Shown: positions 1 through 48,095 of the stretch, one piece after another
Layout: every line of letters starts with the position of its first letter
How positions within the stretch are numbered: position 1 is the first letter of the stretch
Source: Nitrososphaerota archaeon
Lineage (GTDB): Archaea; Thermoproteota; Nitrososphaeria_A; Caldarchaeales; Calditenuaceae
Length of the DNA stretch: 64,000 nt
Assembly: GCA_009889515.1 (NCBI GenBank)
Contig: WUQR01000139.1
Span: 620,001 to 684,000, forward strand
Direction of reading: 5' to 3'
The notes under the pieces: generated by a model
The model's database searches: none
The model's input: the letters and a program-made list of their open reading frames with translations, nothing else
Told to the model about the DNA's origin: nothing
Position numbers and translations under genes: made by a program

Positions 1-169
1 GGTCGTGTCCAAACCATTTCCTAAGCCCAGTACTAGGAGCTATTTCCCGCAACCAGAGGTCAATATGAGCTGACTCCCTACTCAAACCCCTGGGCCAGAT
101 CCTGTCTACCAGGACTCTAAACCCATCATCCTTAGCAGGCGGGTCATACACCCTTTTAATCTTAAACAC
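1..169 (-). CDS. DUF488 family protein, partial (runs off left edge)
   Basis: Reading the minus strand from a GTG at 169 gives about 56 residues that match the start of DUF488 (YeaO-like) proteins: KRVYDPP, then [15 protein letters not shown], then LWLREIAPS and RKWFGHD. The gene continues beyond base 1. A TTTTATAG box on the minus strand centred near 195 lies 26 nt upstream of the GTG, as expected for a leaderless archaeal transcript. DUF488 proteins are small soluble proteins of uncertain function. The family assignment rests on motif recognition from about half a protein; the start is inferred from the TATA spacing. Confidence 0.8.
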
Positions 170-190
170 TACCGCGTGGCCTGCAGGCCC

Positions 191-199
191 CTATAAAAC
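191..199. promoter_or_regulatory. TATA element, possibly bidirectional
   Basis: TATAAAA reads on the plus strand and TTTTATA on the minus strand. It is 26 nt upstream of the GTG of the DUF488 gene on the minus strand and about 37 nt upstream of the small ORF on the plus strand. The minus-strand use is better supported. Confidence 0.5.
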
Positions 200-231
200 A
201 TTTCAAGATTTACAAGGGGACGTGTCTTTGG

Positions 232-423
232 GTGTTGTTAATGGGTGTCCTGCTGGGTGACATAGTCACTGCCCCAAGGTTTGGGCTGATGTACATCGAG
301 TTCGCAGACTATCTTTTCAGTCTCTGGTCATTCACCGGGCTAGTGCTAAGCCAGCTTGGGATAGCATCCTCTGTGATAATGTGCCTGTATAGAGGGAGGA
401 GGGGTTCAAAGACCAGAGGTTAA
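232..423 (+). CDS. Small hypothetical membrane protein
   Basis: This reading frame of 63 residues (TTG start; an ATG two codons later at 238 is an alternative) has one or two hydrophobic stretches and a basic C-terminal tail (YRGRRGSK), as in a small membrane protein with the tail inside. A TATAAAA box lies about 37 nt upstream and an AAGGGG stretch about 15 nt upstream. I recognise no family. It fills the space between the divergent DUF488 gene and the ATPase D gene region. It could be a chance open frame. Confidence 0.35.
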   Translation: MLLMGVLLGDIVTAPRFGLMYIEFADYLFSLWSFTGLVLSQLGIASSVIMCLYRGRRGSKTRG

Positions 424-431
424 GACCGATT

Positions 432-590
432 TCAGTGCCCCTTCTCCTCTCTACGCCTCGCCCCAGATAAGACCTTCTCCAACACGCTCCAAGTGTCCTT
501 CTCAACTTCGGCTGCTAGCTGGGCTGTTCGACCCCTAATTTTCGCCTCGCACTCTTTGAGGACCTCCTTTACCCTCTCCTCGATGCTCAA
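432..590 (-). CDS. 52-residue charged helical protein downstream of V-ATPase subunit D
   Basis: A TTG at 590 preceded by GAGGTGA (7 nt spacing) opens a 52-residue frame ending in TGA at 432-434. The product is rich in Glu, Lys and Arg, with heptad-like spacing (SIEERVKEVLKECEAKIRG, then QLAAEVEKDTW). This resembles the coiled-coil stalk subunits (E or H/G) of A-type ATPases. It lies 36 nt after the stop of subunit D, in the same direction. Seen: frame, ribosome binding site and composition. Inferred: a stalk-associated small subunit or assembly factor. No family assignment is possible from so short a sequence. Confidence 0.5.
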   Translation of the reverse strand: MSIEERVKEVLKECEAKIRGRTAQLAAEVEKDTWSVLEKVLSGARRREEKGH

Positions 591-626
591 CTCTGCCTCA
601 CCTCTGAGGCCTGCCCCTATTAAGCT

Positions 627-1277
627 TTAACCCGCCGCCTTTCTCTCTAGAACTTTCTTGATGTGCTTAAGCTTTACGAAATAGTCCCTGTCCGCCTCCT
701 CAAGCGCCATTGAGATGGTCTTGATAGCCTCCTCGTACCTCGGTATGATTATGTATTCGAGGGCGTTTAGGAGTCTTTGGGTCTTTCGAAGCTCATTCGC
801 TACCCTGAAGATGTTGTTCTCGGTTGCAGCCGCCTTGCAGATGTCCGTTATCACCCTCCTAATCTTCCTAGCCGCCTCGTCTAAGCTTATCGATGTGTCT
901 CCGAAACCGTATAGTAGGCCCGCCTCTTGGCTCTGGGCGTTTAGCGTTACGAGGGAGATGCCCATCATCGTGAAGGTGTCCATGCTTATGGTCACTGTCT
1001 CGGGGGCTGTGCGCGCTATAGACTCGATTTTCTGAGGGCCAAGCTCCATGTATGCTGAGAGCAGGTGTCTGTAGGACTCGGAAAGGTTTGAGAGTGCCCT
1101 GTTCCTCAGCTCTTGGGCCTCCTCCACAAGCTCGTTCAGCCGCGATATCAGAACATCCCGCTTATCCTCCAAGATCCTGTAGACCCTTTGGGCCGTCCTT
1201 ACAGCCCTCCTCAACCTTATCAGCTCTAGGCGGGTCCTAAGATAGCCCCGCCCGAACGAGACCGACATCCAAGTCAT
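627..1277 (-). CDS. atpD: V/A-type ATP synthase subunit D
   Basis: Subunit D forms the central rotor shaft of the archaeal A-type ATPase. The 216-residue product carries the family N-terminal pattern RTRLELIRLRRAV..AQR...LEDKRDVLI and the long C-terminal helix (NALEYIIIPRYEEAIKTISMALEE), so both arms of the coiled coil are visible. The frame is open further upstream to 1400, but family length and an AAATACTTATT element about 27 nt upstream of ATG 1277 favour this start; a second ATG at 1268 is also possible. It is divergent from the subunit B gene rather than downstream of it, which is unusual. A small charged ORF follows. Confidence 0.9.
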   Translation of the reverse strand: MTWMSVSFGRGYLRTRLELIRLRRAVRTAQRVYRILEDKRDVLISRLNELVEEAQELRNRALSNLSESYRHLLSAYMELGPQKIESIARTAPETVTISMDTFTMMGISLVTLNAQSQEAGLLYGFGDTSISLDEAARKIRRVITDICKAAATENNIFRVANELRKTQRLLNALEYIIIPRYEEAIKTISMALEEADRDYFVKLKHIKKVLERKAAG

Positions 1278-1360
1278 AGCGAAAGCCGCTTCAATAAGTA
1301 TTTTGCAAACCTCCATGAACCACTGAGGGTTTTTTAACAGGCAGTGTGTCTCAAGCATGG

Positions 1361-2761
1361 ATGAGAAGAAGTCGGGCAGGGGGAGGCGTGGAATATACAA
1401 CCGTTAGGGAGATTCGCGGGCCTCTGCTAGTCGTGGACCGTGTGGTGGGCGTATCCTATGACGAATTAGTCGAGGTTGAGACGCCGAGCGGTGAGACTAG
1501 GCTGGGACGCGTGTTGGAGGTGGGCGAGGGCAAGGCCATAGTGCAGGTGTTCGAGGGTACCAGCGGTCTCTCAATCGAGGGTGTAAAGGCAAGGTTCCTA
1601 GGCGAAACAATGAAGCTCGGAGTATCCGAAGAGCTACTTGGCAGGGTCTTTGACGGATTGGGCAGGCCTATAGACGGTCTCCCACCACCACCCGCCGAGG
1701 ACTACAGAGACATTAGCGGCGAACCAATAAATCCAGAGCAGAGAGAGTATCCGAGCGACTTCATCCAGACCGGCATCTCCGCAATCGATGTGATGAACAG
1801 TCTCGTCAGAGGTCAGAAGCTACCAGTATTCAGCGGACCCGGCCTGACCCACAACATACTCGCAGCCCAGATTGCGCGGCAGGCGGTAGTGCCGGGTAAG
1901 GAGGAGGAGTTCGCCGTCATCTTCGCGGCCCTCGGTGTCCAGAACGATGAAGCCCGCTTCTTCAGGCGAAGCCTAGAAGAGAGCGGGGCCATGGGGAGGT
2001 CCGCCCTCTTCCTAAACCTGGCCGACGACCCTGCCGTCGAGAGGATTATAACACCGCGCGTAGCCCTCACACTGGCCGAATTCCTAGCCTTCGAGAGAGA
2101 CTACAACATCCTAGTAATCATCACAGACATGACGAACTACTGTGAGGCGCTCAGAGAGATTAGCGCCGCGCGTGAGGAGGTTCCTGGGAGGAAGGGCTAC
2201 CCCGGCTACATGTACAGTGACTTGGCCTCCATCTACGAGCGGGCTGGCAGGATAAAGGGGAAGAAAGGGACGATAACTCAGATGCCAATACTCACCATGC
2301 CCAGTGACGACATAACACACCCCGTACCTGACTTGACGGGCTACATCACTGAGGGGCAAATAGTTCTGAGCAGGGACCTGCATAGGAAGGGTATATACCC
2401 GCCGATCAACGTTTTGATGAGTCTCTCAAGGCTCATGGGGCCCGGAGTCATAGCCCCCAAGAAGACGAGGCCAGACCACGGCGATGTCTCGAACCAGCTG
2501 TACGCCTCATACTCTAGAGCCGTCCAGCTGAGATCACTGGCGGAGATAGTGGGAAAGTCCAGCCTCTCACCCCAAGACATAAAGCTTATCGAGTTCGGTG
2601 ACCTATTCGAGAACCGCTTCCTAAGGCAGGGAGTGGATGAGAACAGGTCTCTCGACGAGTCACTGTCTATTGCTTGGGAGATATTGAGCACACTCCCCGA
2701 AGACAGCCTAACAAAGATTAAGCCAGAGTTCATTAAACAGTACTATAGAAAAGCAGGGTGA
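1361..2761 (+). CDS. atpB: V/A-type ATP synthase subunit B (non-catalytic)
   Basis: This is the regulatory nucleotide-binding subunit of the A1 head, alternating with catalytic subunit A. The 466-residue protein begins near [17 protein letters not shown], has the degenerate phosphate loop FSGPGLTHN around residues 157-165 (the catalytic GxxGxGKT is absent, as expected for B) and ends with the conserved [18 protein letters not shown] and [14 protein letters not shown] segments. A TTTTTTAAC box at about 1329-1339 is 26 nt upstream of ATG 1361, supporting a leaderless start; GTG 1346 and GTG 1388 are alternatives in frame. Subunits A, C, E, F and K are not in the window, and its 3' end overlaps the convergent DUF92 gene by 29 nt. 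Confidence 0.95.
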
Positions 2762-46374: not shown

Positions 46375-46467
46375 GCGGCGGTAGTCTAGCCTGGTAGGAC
46401 ACCAAGCACATAGATGCGTGGAAGCCTGCCACGCTGGGGGTCGCGGGTTCAAATCCCGCCCGCCGCA
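46375..46467 (+). tRNA. tRNA-Gly (anticodon GCC) with 19-nt intron in the anticodon stem
   Basis: The acceptor GCGGCGG (46375-46381) pairs with CCGCCGC (46460-46466), discriminator A. The T arm is GCGGGTTCAAATCCCGC. The 3' anticodon half CTGCCAC-GCTGG needs a 5' strand CCAGC, but the DNA has CCA, then 19 nt, then GC. Removing 46405-46423 (or shifted by one, since an A is repeated) gives a normal 74-nt tRNA-Gly(GCC). The intron therefore lies near position 29/30, not at the canonical 37/38. TTTTTATAC lies about 30 nt upstream. There is no encoded CCA. Confidence 0.9.
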
Positions 46468-46583
46468 CAGCTGATTTATCGCTTGTAAGATGGGCTAAGC
46501 GCTGGATATTGTTTGAGCCGGAATTGACGGATTAGTAAATGCCTTTCTTCCAGCCTGACGTTATCTATAACCCGCATTTGGTA

Positions 46584-46669
46584 CGCCGGGGGAGGGATTC
46601 GAACCCTCGCGGCCCGAAACGGGCCACAGGCTCTCCAGGCCTGCGCATTGACCTCTCTGCCACCCCGGC
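46584..46669 (-). tRNA. tRNA-Ser (anticodon GGA)
   Basis: On the minus strand, acceptor GCCGGGG/CCCCGGC with discriminator G, anticodon loop CTGGAGA (GGA), long variable arm GTGGCCCGTTTCGGGCC and T arm GAGGGTTCGAATCCCTC. It starts 7 nt after the cbf5 stop codon, in the same direction. It differs from tRNA-Ser(TGA) at 23.9 kb mainly in the D arm and anticodon. Confidence 0.95.
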
Positions 46670-46675
46670 CCTCTG

Positions 46676-47729
46676 TTATGTTGTGGGCTGGCTTGTTTTA
46701 GATTTTCCTTTCCCCCATCTTGGGGGGTAGGTGCCTCGCGCCATGAAGACCCTGTCGGTCTTGGCTATGATTCCCCCTTCTCTCAGGATTTCTTCAGTGG
46801 ATTTTAATGCTTTGGCTATTGCGACTATCTCGCCCTTAAGTGTGTAGATTCCGATTGTTGCTCCTCGGGTGATTCTTGTCTCTGCTTGGGCGACTCCGGG
46901 CTTGGCTAGGGGTGCGCCGTGGCAGATGGCGTCGACTGCAGAGTCGAGGACGACTATTCTGGGTATGTATTCTAGGAGCTCCTCTATGGGTCTGACGATG
47001 CTGCGCAGCATCTTCTCATCCCCGCCCTCACGGTACTGCCAGGCTGCGCGCTGTAGCTGCTGGACTGTTACCGCTTCCTTCTCAGACTTGGGGCCTATCC
47101 GTATGCGCCTCAGCTCGACCATGTGGGCCCCAACACCAAGGACCAGTCCTAAGTCGTGGCAGAGCTTTCGGACGTATGTGCCGCCGCTTACGATCATTCT
47201 TAGGAGGACGTCGCGCCCATCCCTCTCCAAGACCTCGGCCTCGAACAATTCCTTCTTCCTGACCTGTCTCGCGACGTTGGACCTCACGGGCGGTGTCTGG
47301 TAGAACTCTCCGATGAACTGTGAGAGCCCCCACTCGAGGTCGTTGTCGTCGACGTCTCCGTGGAGCCTAAGCAGGCAGACGTACTCCTTCGGGTAAGTGT
47401 GGATCTCCGCAGAGGCCTTTGTTGCGTTTCCTAGGAGGATTGGGAGTAGCCCGGAGACTGCGGGATCTCCCCCACCCGTTAGGGTCTAGGGTCCCGCCGT
47501 GCCCAGCCCTCTCAACTCCCAGCAGTCTTCTGACCCGCTCGGTTATCTCGCCGCTTGTGGGGCCGCGGGGCTTGTCCAAGGGGATGTAGCCATAGTTGAG
47601 CATGTCTTGGATTGGGCGTTCCTCAGGTCTAGAGCCGTATCGCGGGTCTGTTTCGGCCTCCTTGATGGTTACGTATTCGCGTTCAGCAGGCCAGGGGCTT
47701 ACGCTGTGCCGTAGGAAAATGCCTACCAC
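46676..47729 (-). CDS. cbf5: tRNA/rRNA pseudouridine synthase Cbf5, interrupted by a 19-nt intron
   Basis: Cbf5 is the catalytic subunit of H/ACA guide RNPs. Exon 1 (47729-47479) encodes the N-terminus through GHGGTLDP; exon 2 (47459-46676) continues [69 protein letters not shown] and a C-terminal PUA domain ([23 protein letters not shown]). The frames are joined only if 47460-47478 is removed, giving 344 residues and restoring the conserved DPKVSG after the catalytic Asp. GTG start overlaps the L14e stop. The C-terminal tail [11 protein letters not shown] is encoded by the promoter element of the downstream tRNA-Ser. Confidence 0.88.
46691..46708 (-). promoter_or_regulatory. tRNA-Ser(GGA) promoter element inside cbf5
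   Basis: GGAAAATCTAAAACAAGC on the minus strand, 22 nt upstream of the tRNA, matches 17 of 18 bases of the element at the same distance before tRNA-Ser(TGA). Here it lies within the last codons of cbf5. Confidence 0.6.
47460..47478 (-). other. Putative BHB-type intron in cbf5 (19 nt)
   Basis: Minus-strand sequence CGGGTGGGGGAGATCCCGC. Removing it joins GACCCTAA to AGTCTCC, giving codons for Asp-Pro-Lys-Val-Ser. GGG and CCC (or CGGG and CCCG) inside can pair around a loop of about 10 nt, and AGAC before it can pair with GTCT after it. Cuts would fall as AA^C and GC^A, the cut pattern of a bulge-helix-bulge site, although the bulges are not a perfect 3-4-3 arrangement. Splicing would be by the tRNA-splicing endonuclease. 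Confidence 0.75.
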
Positions 47730-48004
47730 CTAGATATCTCAGCCCTCCTCTTCATGTAGTCGATAAGCCCACTCTCCTCCAGTGCCTTTACCACCTCCTC
47801 ATCACTCGCGTCCCTCTTCACCTCGATCTTATACTGTGTTGGCAGGATGTGGAGGATGTTTACGGCGCGCCTCCTAAGACCAGTTAAGCCGGGCGGACCA
47901 GTAACGAGTACCCTATTGCCTCCTACAACATTCACTACAACTCCTTTTAGACCGGCGTCGCGCCCTGCAACCTTCACCACTATTCTTCCAATCTCGGCCA
48001 CCAT
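47723..48004 (-). CDS. rpl14e: Large ribosomal subunit protein L14e
   Basis: About 93 residues from ATG 48004 (GTG 48016 adds four). KOW-type fold: [54 protein letters not shown], typical of L14e. GGTGG lies 8 nt upstream of the ATG. Directly upstream of cbf5 with overlapping stop and start, the standard archaeal order. Confidence 0.93.
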
Positions 48005-48095
48005 ACCTGAATCCACCTATCACTAATGCCCTGTAATAAATCTCAGCCGCGCAGTGATCTCTACCCTTTTTAACTCGCTATGCGAATCAATATCT

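Follow-up and report, generated by a model that had tools for sequence, protein, structure and literature searches.

A candidate 19-nt bulge–helix–bulge intron in the catalytic Asp codon of cbf5 from a Calditenuaceae archaeon

The broken cbf5 frame and the borders of the insertion

The cbf5 gene in the 64,000-nt stretch of DNA analyzed here (the window) raises the question of how a full-length Cbf5 could be produced from a reading frame that breaks beside the codon of its catalytic Asp. The gene lies on the minus strand between a small gene directly upstream (47723–48016), presumably encoding ribosomal protein L14e as judged from its sequence, and a downstream tRNA-Ser gene (46584–46669), and it is single-copy in a genome assembled into 154 contigs. 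As an earlier note on this DNA had described, the frame breaks past GGTLDP: the open frame translates to 120 amino acids, and the part encoding TruB_C_2 and PUA sits in a different frame. With 19 nt taken out, translation and Pfam analysis gave a 344-amino-acid Cbf5 containing DKCLD, TruB_N, TruB_C_2 and PUA. The 19 nt are very probably a bulge–helix–bulge (BHB) intron in the catalytic Asp codon, cut out by EndA with RtcB joining the exons, and a vertically inherited representative of the cbf5 introns already published.

Because the cbf5 frame is kept wherever in this stretch 19 nt are removed, the frame cannot by itself fix the cut. The borders were set by the BHB fold, combined with the rule that cleavage falls past the second base of each bulge (PMC2738675) (Table 1). 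The resulting cut separates the first base of the catalytic Asp codon from the other two (CTAG^...^ATCCC), giving GAT and a spliced GGTLDPAVSG. Among 41 orthologs from the host's own order, 37 read DPAVSG, three DPAVTG and one DPNVSG, and DPAVSG is found in 14 of 14 intronless genes of that order. The earlier note had the length of the insertion right and its borders 7 nt off: removal of exactly 47460–47478 ignores the BHB, whose cut lies upstream on the coding strand, and yields DPKVSG, which was held to be the conserved motif and occurs in none of the 41 orthologs. Those borders were rejected. The CGGG and CCCG described as self-complementary insert ends are able to pair, although CCCG is exon sequence and part of the outer helix.

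Table 1. Features of cbf5 and its predicted intron in the window (all on the minus strand)
Feature	Position	Strand	Basis and remarks
cbf5 exon 1	47486..47729	-	GTG at 47729 taken as start; last base is G, the first of the catalytic Asp codon; translation, Pfam DKCLD/TruB_N on the spliced protein
cbf5 exon 2	46676..47466	-	Begins AT|CCC, completing Asp-Pro; stop codon at end; translation, Pfam
Predicted 19-nt BHB intron, ACCCTAACGGGTGGGGGAG	47467..47485	-	Frame restoration, BHB fold, same position in relatives, covariation
Outer helix h, 5' strand GCGGGA (exon 1)	47492..47497	-	MFE fold
Outer helix h, 3' strand UCCCGC (exon 2)	47460..47465	-	MFE fold; GGGA/UCCC pairs in 75/133 intron-bearing but 2/63 intronless genes
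Central helix H, 5' strand CCCU (exon 1)	47488..47491	-	Fold, covariation
Central helix H, 3' strand GGGG (intron)	47469..47472	-	Fold, covariation
5' bulge AG^A, predicted 5' cut 47486/47485	47485..47487	-	AGA is the 5' bulge in 121/150 distinct introns; cut rule PMC2738675
3' bulge AG^A, predicted 3' cut 47467/47466	47466..47468	-	3 nt unpaired in MFE fold

Published cbf5 introns follow the first base of the catalytic Asp codon and are 16–44 nt long, with several species at exactly 19 (PMC2738675). The insertion in the window has the identical position and falls within this range. Nineteen nucleotides, regarded as very short in the earlier note, is an ordinary length for a cbf5 intron, and lengths down to 12 nt were encountered in the survey described below. 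Rfam matched no family at the intron site, four tRNAs being its sole matches.

Pairing at the junction and the splicing genes of the host

Folding of the precursor gave an MFE structure with a 6-bp outer helix (GCGGGA/UCCCGC), a 4-bp central helix (CCCU/GGGG) and an unpaired AGA as the 3' bulge, so that the bulge–helix–bulge sought in the pre-mRNA is present. On the 5' side, the central helix is followed by AG and then by an inner ACCC/GGGU stem. The intron-side loop is relaxed, with AG opposite G instead of a strict 3-nt bulge, and cleavage would therefore require a relaxed endonuclease. The minimal, relaxed BHB suggested in the earlier note is thus borne out for this loop only, the central helix, 3' bulge and outer helix being standard. 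The isolated fold is of unremarkable stability (z −1.6), and 12 of 200 shuffles fold equally well.

Pairing was assessed by fixed-column pair counts. Across the four pairs of the central helix in 150 distinct introns, 98.8% of cells hold standard pairs, compared to 49–68% when the partner is slid by 1–3 bases. Exon position −5 is occupied by C-G in 115 introns, U-A in 24 and A-U in eight, and position −4 by C-G in 133 and U-A in 13. It is hard to see three pair types arising at one position without selection for pairing. In a Thermoproteota-dominated set of 133, Watson–Crick pairs number 130 at −5 and 129 at −4, against maxima of 112 and 119 in 5000 permutations, which ignore relatedness. The outer helix forms four of four pairs in 75 of 133 intron-bearing genes versus two of 63 intronless ones (Fisher p 1e-14), and its synonymous exon positions are constrained in the former and unconstrained in the latter. 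Together, the fold and the pairing across the 150 introns identify the precursor as a BHB or relaxed BHB with its predicted cuts in the bulges. In the phylum of G410 (L253, L280–L291 and L298), to which a Lokiarchaeota genome belongs, some cbf5 introns pair GGGACACUAG with the intron end CAGUGAA, which adds another type of compensated pair.

Two EndA genes (PF01974) are present in the genome, located on contig C139 of G000 at about 1,000,240–1,000,800 and 774,160–774,700. The alpha chain is of catalytic type (E=7e-55 to 3p1z), with aligned FAVYKYGP, DHAPYIV and VRKNF stretches that we take to hold the catalytic Tyr, His and Lys. The beta chain is a weaker match (E=4e-23 to 5x89), with SKYLIF aligned where the catalytic chain has its His-bearing stretch. 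On gene content, with two PF01974 genes of which one has the Tyr/His/Lys regions, the genome is predicted to encode a hetero-oligomeric splicing endonuclease. It also encodes RtcB (E=2e-165), the archaeal joining ligase. Heterotetrameric EndA has been associated with relaxed BHB sites (PMC2738675), and a catalytic plus a second EndA gene would fit that enzyme.

In the proposed mechanism, exon sequences around Gly-Thr-Leu-Asp-Pro would pair in the precursor mRNA (GCGGGA with UCCCGC), and the last bases of exon 1 would pair with the intron end (CCCU with GGGG), exposing two bulges. EndA would then cleave AG^A in both bulges, and RtcB would ligate the exons to restore the GAT codon of Asp and a full-length Cbf5. 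From the anatomy, position, conservation and covariation of the intron and from the enzyme genes, we infer that it is cut and joined in the host and that the EndA subunits assemble. An intron of the tRNA-endonuclease type, as the earlier note had proposed, is supported by the position, phase, BHB helices, covariation and EndA and RtcB genes alike.

Distribution of the interruption and rival explanations

The host shares its genus with archaeon HR02 (contig BEHE01000004), the nearest named record, which NCBI places in Caldarchaeales, Calditenuaceae. It belongs to neither Desulfurococcales nor Sulfolobales, a difference of range and not of mechanism. Comparison of the site in related genomes, a check raised in the earlier note, revealed 16–20-nt inserts at the identical point in each of the five congeneric genomes, and the HR02 junction is identical to that of G002, also of this genus. 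An intron occupies the site in 11 of 11 genomes read from the host's family and in 27 of 41 from its order (f1, 11/11; f2, 2/2; f4, 8/8; f3, 6/20). Within f3, genus g6 has a 20-nt intron in six of six genomes and the other genera are intronless in 14 of 14, which makes f3 well suited to the study of a recent loss or gain.

For a wider survey, 397 Thermoproteota genomes were searched at the protein level and 102 were re-searched, and after DNA was fetched the junction could be read in about 190. The same-site intron was found in 44 of 63 sampled families (39 intron-only, five mixed and 19 with none), counts that are not prevalence estimates because sampling favored split genes. Intron lengths spanned 12–67 nt and were mostly 13–40. 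The automatic junction finder returned no answer for L086 and L293. In complete genomes that we take to be S. tokodaii (G185), A. pernix (G135), S. hellenicus (G082) and C. lagunensis (G258), it gave 31, 38, 36 and 29 nt, respectively, equal to the published table if these identities hold. Beyond Thermoproteota, the phylum named through L009 as Parvarchaeota has the intron in four genomes of a sample of 70 (12, 13, 22 and 22 nt). One of these inserts, in Parvarchaeota archaeon UBA446 (L009, position about 1708), has 12 nt and an in-frame TGA, compared to a published minimum of 16 nt. The phylum named through L006 as Lokiarchaeota yielded 14 distinct introns of 17–41 nt in a sample of 79 genomes.

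The survey also turned up cbf5 genes of unusual build. L152 (genome G044, 98–2461, minus strand) encodes a Cbf5 with an apparent intein, which starts CVPENTELILNNGG and ends VMVISN before Cys, together with a 22-nt BHB intron. Similar open frames of 836–902 amino acids, split near residue 185, occur in the Lokiarchaeota-phylum genomes G497, G525, G526 and G529.

Two explanations that dispense with splicing were weighed against this distribution. A programmed ribosomal frameshift across the stretch would account for the correct GGTLDP residues before the break, and early cbf5 cases were indeed mistaken for translational frameshifting (PMC2738675), but it would leave about six foreign residues beside the catalytic Asp. 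The inserts of 12–67 nt cover all three classes modulo 3, some with in-frame stops, and the covariation tracks the BHB instead of a slippery site with a stimulator; the genomes show no constant shift of +1 or −1 tied to a conserved slippery site. Frameshifting was rejected as highly improbable on the strength of the three phases and the BHB covariation. Even less credence is due to an assembly error or a genuine frameshift in a dying gene. Isolated frame breaks often arise as artefacts, and the assembly comprises 154 contigs, but the same position is interrupted in the five congeners by inserts differing in length and sequence, and in many families, closed genomes included. A dying gene is further contradicted by the intact downstream domains and by cbf5 being single-copy. 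Both variants were rejected, the interruption of relatives at the same position being decisive.

A third alternative accepts that the insert is spliced and holds that it was gained independently in the host's own lineage, at a hot spot, instead of being inherited with the Sulfolobales/Desulfurococcales intron. The GGTLDP codons easily provide an outer helix and might attract insertions; the introns are patchy, with mixed families (f3, f5, f6, f15 and f25) and four carriers among the 70 Parvarchaeota-phylum genomes sampled; and support for the deep branches of the Cbf5 tree is weak. On the other hand, most families are uniform, the phase is identical everywhere and the AG^A bulge is common to most. 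When intron presence was mapped on a tree built by FastTree from 272 Cbf5 proteins, 24 changes were required, whereas shuffled labels needed 89 on average and never fewer than 80, which argues that the trait was mostly inherited, with several losses or gains. Independent gain is therefore considered rather unlikely, and the inherited BHB intron is retained as the preferred reading.

Age of the intron and its relation to known systems

The gain of the cbf5 intron has been dated to an ancestor shared by Desulfurococcales and Sulfolobales, with absence in Thermoproteales, Korarchaeum, Nitrosopumilus and Cenarchaeum (PMC2738675), and a 2020 paper still described the one in cbf5 as the sole further BHB intron on record for archaea and as limited to crenarchaeota (PMC7714728). 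A search of the open-licence literature, with subscription papers outside its reach, found no report of the intron outside Desulfurococcales and Sulfolobales. The kind of intron is thus already known, and the novelty lies in the breadth of its distribution: this rare mRNA intron is far more widely spread, and possibly far older, than published. Its presence, accompanied by compensated base pairs, in 44 sampled Thermoproteota families and in the Lokiarchaeota and Parvarchaeota phyla cannot be reconciled with the published date, except by many separate insertions at the site or by exchange of the gene. Somewhat short of an even chance, in our estimate, is the proposal that the intron predates the split between Thermoproteota and the Lokiarchaeota phylum and was kept or repeatedly lost, instead of being gained in the Desulfurococcales–Sulfolobales ancestor; weak deep-branch support and an unresolved direction of change on the Cbf5 tree leave an ancient origin as a possibility only. 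If the proposal is true, persistence in a catalytic codon would imply a selected function, such as regulation of the amount of Cbf5 through splicing. In practical terms, cbf5 is likely mis-annotated as frameshifted or broken in many archaeal genomes, and the survey supplies more than 100 natural BHB variants as a data set.

The closest known system is the cbf5 intron of Desulfurococcales and Sulfolobales (Watanabe 2002; Yoshinari 2006; Yokobori 2009, PMC2738675), with which the window's insertion shares gene, codon, phase, BHB, cuts past the second bulge base and length range, with a hetero-oligomeric EndA expected for both. The two differ in host, which is here a member of Caldarchaeales/Calditenuaceae (HR02), and in that splicing in the window is predicted from sequence.

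Archaeal tRNA BHB introns share the substrate type, the presumed enzymes (EndA and RtcB) and similar sizes, whereas the cbf5 intron interrupts a protein-coding gene and offers the enzyme no tRNA body to hold on to. A tRNA gene near cbf5 (46375–46468, plus strand), for which ARAGORN gave '???' or Ser(aga), forms a clean tRNA-Gly(GCC) cloverleaf once 46405–46423 (19 nt) is removed and thus probably contains a non-canonical intron inside the anticodon stem. If so, the neighborhood of cbf5 would hold two non-standard substrates.

With archaeal rRNA BHB introns, the cbf5 intron has in common the BHB motif and the cleavage rule. Many of the rRNA introns encode homing endonucleases, whereas the cbf5 intron, at 19 nt, is too short to encode any.
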